Of a stretch of 8,485 bases of DNA, positions 1,669-2,589 are shown piece after piece; the first letter of the stretch is position 1, and every line of letters starts with the position of its first letter. Location of the stretch: contig JAJYJX010000113.1 of assembly GCA_021789095.1 (NCBI GenBank), positions 1 to 8,485 of the forward strand, read 5' to 3'. Made by a program: the position numbers and the translations under genes. This DNA is from a bacterium. GTDB taxonomy: Bacteria; JAMCPX01. The notes below the pieces were generated by a model. The model was not told the DNA's origin, searched no databases, and saw only the letters and a list, made by a program, of their open reading frames with translations.

Positions 1669-2589
1669 ATGAAAAGAGATTCTTATACCGGTTCAAAGAT
1701 CATAAACCCCGTTAGAAAATCTAAGACGGGAAAGCACGCCCTTTCTATAAGGAATTTGAGATGTATCATATTATCCCCGCTATATATGGTGCGACTTTCT
1801 AACGGGGTAAAGTACATGCTGTTATTTATGGCGTGCATATCGTTTTACCTACCTGTACGCTATGCACTCGGAGGAGAGGAACCAGAGAGTACAGTGAATA
1901 CGCAGAAGATCAGCACCGCACAGTCGATAATGAACAACGTGATAATAGCACTGCTTAAAAAAGATATAGATGCCTTAAAGCAGATAAAGAGCTATCATTG
2001 CACATTTATAAAACAGGAAATGTTCAACGGTAAGCTCAGCCACACAGAGACAATAAGCTATTACTACGAGGCACCGTGCAGCATTTATATGAAGTGGACG
2101 AACGAACAGGAAAAGGGACTTGTTGCAGTATATAACTGTAAAAAAGATAAAAACCATTTCAAGGGAAAAGACAGCGGAATTGCGGGGTACCTCGGGTTCA
2201 TGAAGTTCAAGTTGAAAAGCAATTTTGTAAAGGCATTCCATCCAAACCACTGGCAGATCAATCAATCGGACATAATTTTTATGACCAGGATGATCCTTGA
2301 ACAGATGGAGGATTCCATCAAGGCCGGGCAGTTCAGACTGAACTCGATCAAGGCGGTGCACGACGATGAAGCCGGCGTGGATGCCCTGAGGTTCGATGCT
2401 TTCCTTTCCGACAGGCCCGTTGACGGAATATTGTACAGCAAGGCATCAATATGGGTGGATTCCGATACACTCATACCCGTGAAGTTACTGCTGTATAATT
2501 TCAAAGGTGAACTCTATGAAAGGTACATATTGAAGGACATGAAACTGAACGTGGACATCCCCCGGGGCATATTTGTGCCTGTACGGTAG
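1669..2589 (+). CDS. DUF1571 family protein, probably exported, N-terminus altered by an inserted element
   Basis: A DUF1571 family protein of unknown biochemical role. The recognisable domain runs from about IKSYHCTFIKQEMFNGKL through a middle tract ending YMKW to the C-terminal part (ILEQMEDSIKAGQF, ASIWVDSDTLIPVKLLLY). The pattern is that of a LolA-like beta-rich envelope protein; that fold is inferred. As read from ATG 1669 it has 306 residues, but codons 13-47 come from a 101-bp inverted-repeat element plus a duplicated TAAA. Without it, the protein would begin MKRDSYTGSKIIK, then YMLLFMACISFYLPV and RYALGG: a normal signal peptide with basic n-region, hydrophobic core and small residues near the cut site. 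Three starts are possible today: 1669 (306 aa, next to the likely transcription start), ATG 1786 inside the element (267 aa, with a basic n-region) and ATG 1816 (257 aa). None has a good ribosome binding site. The gene lies 48 bases before msrAB and probably shares its transcript. Confidence 0.8.
   Translation: MKRDSYTGSKIINPVRKSKTGKHALSIRNLRCIILSPLYMVRLSNGVKYMLLFMACISFYLPVRYALGGEEPESTVNTQKISTAQSIMNNVIIALLKKDIDALKQIKSYHCTFIKQEMFNGKLSHTETISYYYEAPCSIYMKWTNEQEKGLVAVYNCKKDKNHFKGKDSGIAGYLGFMKFKLKSNFVKAFHPNHWQINQSDIIFMTRMILEQMEDSIKAGQFRLNSIKAVHDDEAGVDALRFDAFLSDRPVDGILYSKASIWVDSDTLIPVKLLLYNFKGELYERYILKDMKLNVDIPRGIFVPVR
1707..1807. mobile_element. MITE-like 101-bp element with 12-bp inverted ends and TAAA target duplication
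   Basis: The left end CCCCGTTAGAAA (1707-1718) and right end TTTCTAACGGGG (1796-1807) are perfect reverse complements. A 4-bp direct repeat TAAA flanks them (1703-1706 and 1808-1811), as left by transposition. If the flanking A/T is counted in the inverted repeat it grows to 13 bp and the duplication shrinks to AA. The left end can also fold alone: CCCGTTAGA at 1708-1716 pairs with TCTAA and CGGG at 1720-1730 around a two-base GA bulge. On the right, CCCCG at 1775-1779 faces CGGGG at 1803-1807. No transposase frame fits, so it must be non-autonomous. It is read through in the DUF1571 frame without a stop. The transposon family is not identified. Confidence 0.75.

Follow-up and report, generated by a model that had tools for sequence, protein, structure and literature searches.

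The 101-bp segment at positions 1707-1807 of the DNA analysed here is very probably a non-autonomous MITE of a family that crosses bacterial phyla, lying in the leader of a DUF1571 gene and read through from the start codon at 1669. Taken as a whole, this reading explains the observations best. The DNA (the window, 8,485 nucleotides) makes up a complete contig (C45) in a draft genome of 2.15 Mb, and all features described below are on its forward strand.

An in-frame insertion in the leader of a DUF1571 gene

The layout at 1703-1811 is TAAA-CCCCGTTAGAAA-77 bp-TTTCTAACGGGG-TAAA. The left terminal inverted repeat (1707-1718), recognised by repeat search and from genome copies, and the right one (1796-1807) are perfect 12-bp ends, TTTCTAACGGGG being the exact reverse complement of CCCCGTTAGAAA; in an imperfect version the inverted repeat extends to 16 nt at 94%. 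The ends are bordered by the target duplications TAAA at 1703-1706 and 1808-1811, and a 4-bp duplication is general to the family. Element plus one TAAA amounts to 105 bp or 35 codons, which read NPVRKSKTGKHALSIRNLRCIILSPLYMVRLSNGV and contain no stop within the 306-aa ORF 1669-2589. A MITE-like element with inverted ends, duplicated TAAA and an in-frame length of 35 codons, carrying an in-frame ATG at 1786, had been predicted earlier from the sequence, and all these features were confirmed.

The ORF encodes a signal peptide followed by a DUF1571 domain (PF07608, E 1.4e-20, residues 107-298). Two related genomes from the same family, G004 and G001, have orthologs (76% and 72% identical, respectively) without the element; the gene neighbours of these orthologs differ from those in the window, orthology being assigned by sequence alone. 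When the element was removed, the window sequence TTCAAAGATCATAAAGTACATGCTG aligned without a gap across the site with TTCAAAGTCAGTAAAATGCATGCTG of G004. Both orthologs are gap-free across the junction and have the start codon at 1669 in common. The ancestral start and n-region (MKRDSYTGSKII, 1669-1704) align with a GTG start and KKDSYKTSKSV in G004 and with an ATG start in G001, and the hydrophobic core of the signal peptide (YMLLFMACISFYLPV, 1813-1857), which is aligned in the orthologs, is uninterrupted by the insertion. Element ends were found in none of the relatives' DUF1571 loci. Judged from these alignments, the absence of the element from both orthologs, the unbroken match at the junction and the common start at 1669 make the 101-bp segment an insertion. 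The original prediction had proposed looking for an empty site in orthologous genes; it was found in the two related genomes, where the 35 residues are absent. A second DUF1571 paralog, 48% identical, is present in the same genome (G000:C118, L045) and does not carry the element.

The insertion lies in the n-region of a Sec-type signal peptide, which it would lengthen by 35 residues, and has the orientation and frame in which the 101-bp subfamily can be read through. That the ORF is open throughout could also be expected of ordinary lineage-specific protein sequence with a chance inverted repeat, but the empty site in the relatives and the occurrence of the same DNA at many unrelated places refute this explanation, to which we attach practically no probability.

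Copies in the source genome

The end repeats occur in the source genome far beyond chance: the 12-bp end (with at most one mismatch) was found at 171 places, versus 15 for the reversed-pattern control, and complete end pairs 64-94 bp long were found seven times, versus none in the control. The original prediction had named the absence of any other copy in the genome as an outcome that would speak against it; many copies were found. The nearest kin of the window copy, in its own genome, are 101 bp long and identical to it at 71-80 of the 101 positions. These kin can fold into an end-stem and inner hairpins, a structure that is partly lost in the window copy. Since the ends are perfect and the duplication is intact while the interior has clearly diverged, the comparison suggests that most interior divergence from the kin predates this insertion. 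A second ORF of this genome that contains the element (L004) matched no Pfam family and is unlikely to be a real gene.

The frame of the element is open in four of the eight full-length relatives in the genome; at the position of the TAT codon 1783-1785 four of the eight full-length copies have the stop TAA. The exact 35-codon fit emphasized in the original prediction is real but unremarkable: 101 bp is the usual length of the subfamily, and any such member keeps the frame, so that an in-frame fit is to be expected.

Target site, ends and length

Terminal inverted repeats, a target duplication of fixed length, dispersed copies, an empty site and the lack of a transposase gene, i.e. the features that define a MITE, were all found. 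Of 137 copies, 72 have flanks that agree over exactly 4 bp, as opposed to two copies each for 3 or 5 bp, and in a larger set of exact-end copies the 4-bp duplication was present in 85 of 157; about half of the copies are thus without a matching 4-bp duplication. The first position of the target is T in 95%, the second and third are mostly A/T and the fourth is A in 95%, with G before and C after it at 42%, which gives (G)TWWA(C). The element would therefore be described as a MITE with 12-13 bp inverted ends (CCCCGTTAGAAA) that probably inserts at TWWA in the context G-TWWA-C and duplicates those 4 bp. Copies range from 29 to about 270 bp and carry no transposase gene of their own. Their interiors are mostly unrelated between genomes and only small subfamilies can be aligned, as if family members kept their ends and changed their interiors.

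Several further observations concern the architecture of the copies. In 106 of 130 copies position 13, next to the 12-bp end, is complementary between the two ends, whichever base it is (T-A 66, G-C 20, A-T 16, C-G 4). Many copies whose flanks are not identical have a different valid target on each side (TTTA/TGAA, TTCA/TAAA), as recombination between elements would produce. In the sample of 79-109 bp (loci L048-L161) lengths cluster at 79-83, 92-95 and 101-105 bp, about 11 bp apart (Rayleigh statistic 7.5 at 11.5 bp); this would fit a requirement that the two ends face the same side of the helix. Versions of 33 bp, consisting of the 12-bp ends and the 9-bp middle [AG]TAGAAGAC, are located at different sites in two genomes (L164, L165 and L172; G067 and G070). 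The recurrence of a 33-bp version with the same middle at separate positions in two genomes suggests that even very short copies can move, and the 33-bp form may be among the shortest mobile-looking DNA repeats.

Search for a parent element and a transposase

No end pair at a distance of 0.5-4 kb and bordered by a matching duplication, as an autonomous copy would show, turned up in the fetched loci. One 2.7-kb end pair in G067 proved to be two separate copies flanking ordinary genes; of 20 single ends in G070, most belonged to MITEs whose other end had decayed. Likewise, no parent element with matching ends was detected in the fetched loci or among the end positions listed for three genomes. 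The IS1380-type transposase (PF13701) was rejected as a candidate: it is absent from eight of nine element-bearing genomes, and the ends are absent at the locus that has one. The duplication and the ends point to movement by a DDE-type transposase, and the MITE would be moved in trans by such a putative enzyme.

A different kind of mobility was weighed, namely that the element is a REP-type palindrome moved through single-stranded DNA by a Y1 (RAYT) tyrosine transposase. The element can form hairpins, some copies are only 29-40 bp long, and Y1 transposases are present in eight of the nine genomes examined. Y1 mobilisation, however, is not known to leave a target duplication, and the family has a clear 4-bp one; moreover, none of 30 fetched Y1 loci was bracketed by element ends, and G066, which has many copies, gave no Y1 match. 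We hold mobilisation by Y1 to be very improbable, and the non-autonomous MITE remains the preferred interpretation.

Start codon and tolerance of the insertion

Three in-frame start codons come into question. Shine-Dalgarno energies were +1.8 kcal/mol for the start at 1669 and +1.9 kcal/mol for the ATG at 1786-1788, that is, there is no Shine-Dalgarno sequence at either. For the ATG at 1816-1818 the value was -6.3 kcal/mol, produced by the Shine-Dalgarno-like GGGGTAAAG, which consists of the last bases of the right element end plus the duplicated TAAA. Four other genes of the window have values of -7 to -11 kcal/mol. The position of ATG 1816 is occupied by ATA in G001.

The original prediction had suggested that the element was tolerated because it supplied a new start and n-region (ATG 1786: MVRLSNGVKYMLLF), the upstream part being no longer translated. 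ATG 1786 is indeed in frame and places two basic residues ahead of the intact core, and the element end can provide the Shine-Dalgarno-like sequence for ATG 1816. Nevertheless, the start at 1669 is conserved in two relatives, ATG 1786, without a Shine-Dalgarno sequence, is a possible but unsupported start, a signal peptide beginning at ATG 1816 would have no basic n-region, and the frame is open through the element, which a new start would not require. A replacement start is thus possible but unnecessary, and we consider it doubtful. Of 1669, 1786 and 1816, the conserved 1669 appears to be the simplest choice.

Read from 1669, the n-region with the insertion has 48 residues and a net charge of +10, which is unusual for a Sec signal. 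This property, together with the DUF1571 paralog elsewhere in the genome, would fit an insertion that damaged the protein, leaving it mis-targeted and its gene heading to decay. The remaining ORF, however, is intact and gives a strong DUF1571 match, and similar insertions recur upstream of conserved genes, e.g. that of a penicillin-binding protein, so we regard damage as quite unlikely. With the hydrophobic core and the mature protein unaffected and the leader presumably removed, the DUF1571 gene is most likely still functional from the ancestral start at 1669. Loose constraint on leaders, which are usually cleaved off, is the best explanation for the tolerance of the insertion. We infer the use of the protein and the processing of DUF1571 and of the element-bearing leaders from sequence.

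In-frame copies in N-terminal leaders

A survey of 183 distinct copies with flanks was carried out, in which a long ORF reading through the element and then Pfam support for it were sought. In a sulfatase the Tat motif directly follows the element (..SNGVNRREFLNIVAGG..), and in a penicillin-binding protein the element is just before the membrane anchor. Other Pfam-recognised leader copies belong to four pseudopilins, a polysaccharide-export lipoprotein and a CHASE2 cyclase. A smaller number were inside proteins (a pyruvate-type oxidoreductase, radical SAM proteins, a histidine kinase and a lysyltransferase-like protein). In-frame copies thus seem to recur in N-terminal leaders predicted to be of the Sec, Tat, lipoprotein, membrane-anchor and prepilin types, and these leaders may be a refuge for the element. 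The in-frame insertion into a signal-peptide n-region claimed for the window therefore held up, as one of a recurrent class.

The prepilins were the most regular case. The string LTGFTL[IV]E read from the element end was found in ten prepilins in 6 of 20 carrier genomes, and not once with the reversed-pattern control. Three of the 20 genomes (G397, G398, G399) were chosen for showing a leader insertion, so that the count is somewhat biased; six prepilin cases remain in the other 17. In all ten prepilins an element end is located 29-152 bp upstream and TTTA forms the right flank; eight of them also have TTTA on the left. The ORF typically reads ..GF-TPLE..-LTGF-TL[IV]E, the element end and the duplication recreating the G-F-T-L-[IV]-E cleavage motif. 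About 150 prepilin motifs are present in the same genomes in all, so roughly one in 15 has an element right at the cleavage motif. An approximate calculation, which takes about 600 copies in 47 Mb and some 105 motif sites of the TTTA type among about 1.4 million TWWA sites, predicts fewer than 0.1 prepilin cases by chance; the figure stays below one if survival of copies is confined to a tenth of the genome.

The prepilin insertions are partly explained by the preferred target GTTTAC, which is contained in the GGG-TTT-ACN version of the motif. Insertion at GGN-TTT-ACN would duplicate TTTA, and the element end GGGG followed by TTTA would recreate G-F-T. Because the copy rebuilds G-F-T, the mature pilin should be unchanged: given its known specificity, prepilin peptidase should remove the element along with the old leader. 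A more general idea, which in our judgement could equally well prove right or wrong, is that the GTWWAC preference and the end ..CTAACGGGG make insertion into the prepilin motif self-repairing at the protein level, leaders serving as protein-level 'introns' and, in gene-dense genomes, offering selfish DNA a systematic refuge.

Spread across phyla

The exact end pair, 79-109 bp long, was present in at least 114 stretches in GTDB genomes. The titles among the matches listed include Patescibacteria (many lineages), Kazan, Omnitrophota, Deltaproteobacteria/Syntrophaceae, Planctomycetes (Sedimentisphaerales, Phycisphaerae), Nitrospirae/Thermodesulfovibrionia, Nitrospinota, KSB1 and Stahlbacteria. 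The family thus appears to be present in at least seven bacterial phyla, the carriers being mostly metagenome-assembled genomes, of which some may be misbinned and bear a wrong phylum label. Single genomes contain up to 191 end sequences (reversed control, 0). The short form (36-66 bp) was found in 8 of 386 sampled genomes, including that of the window and two more from the same family. Two different Deltaproteobacteria genomes (L170, L173) have a 40-bp copy preceded by an identical left flank (ggttcatcctttttacctaccttta), which marks it as a shared, older insertion. Phage records gave no element match; among 2.9 million viral contigs one (L228, IMGVR_UViG_3300038429_000794) has a 79-109 bp pair.

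Relation to known elements

Correia elements, RUP, ERIC and MITEAba12 are, like the present family, small and non-coding, with inverted ends and many copies, and are thought to be mobilised in trans. Each is known from one genus or family, whereas the element family crosses phyla, has a hypervariable interior and yielded no parent insertion sequence. C-rich tips and AT-rich duplications of 4-5 bp are characteristic of the IS1380/piggyBac superfamily; the element resembles it in its C-rich tips and AT-rich duplication, a likeness that is a lead only, with an IS1380-type transposase in one of nine carrier genomes. REPs are not known to have a target duplication. They resemble the element in being short hairpins of high copy number, and differ from it in that the element family has a target duplication and is unlinked to Y1 genes; REPs are extragenic and carry a GTAG or CGTC tag (PMC3733652).

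Another close parallel is offered by the Rickettsia palindromic elements (RPE), short palindromic mobile repeats that have inserted in frame into genes of many unrelated proteins and are translated with them (PMC10969869). The present family, too, has open frames through recognised genes, as read from the sequence. Compared by description only, RPEs are about 150 bp long and were described from Rickettsia, whereas our copies are 29-270 bp long and occur in many phyla; the family also differs in its 4-bp target duplication, its fixed 12-bp ends and the location of in-frame copies mostly in N-terminal leaders. Neither 12-bp end was found printed in the open-access literature, where only shorter strings in unrelated papers matched, and no cross-phylum or prepilin MITEs were found there, which is weak evidence of absence. 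MITEs and translated palindromes are known kinds of elements; a parentless family with identical ends across phyla that recurs in leaders is apparently undescribed.

The family represents a tiny mobile element with identical ends in many phyla, the reduced Patescibacteria among them. As a concrete example, it illustrates how selfish DNA could live within coding sequence, by residing in a leader that the cell would cut off. For annotators it carries a warning: the recurring NPVR..SNGVK and TPLE..LTGF in proteins from metagenome-assembled genomes are probably translated transposon ends and not domains.
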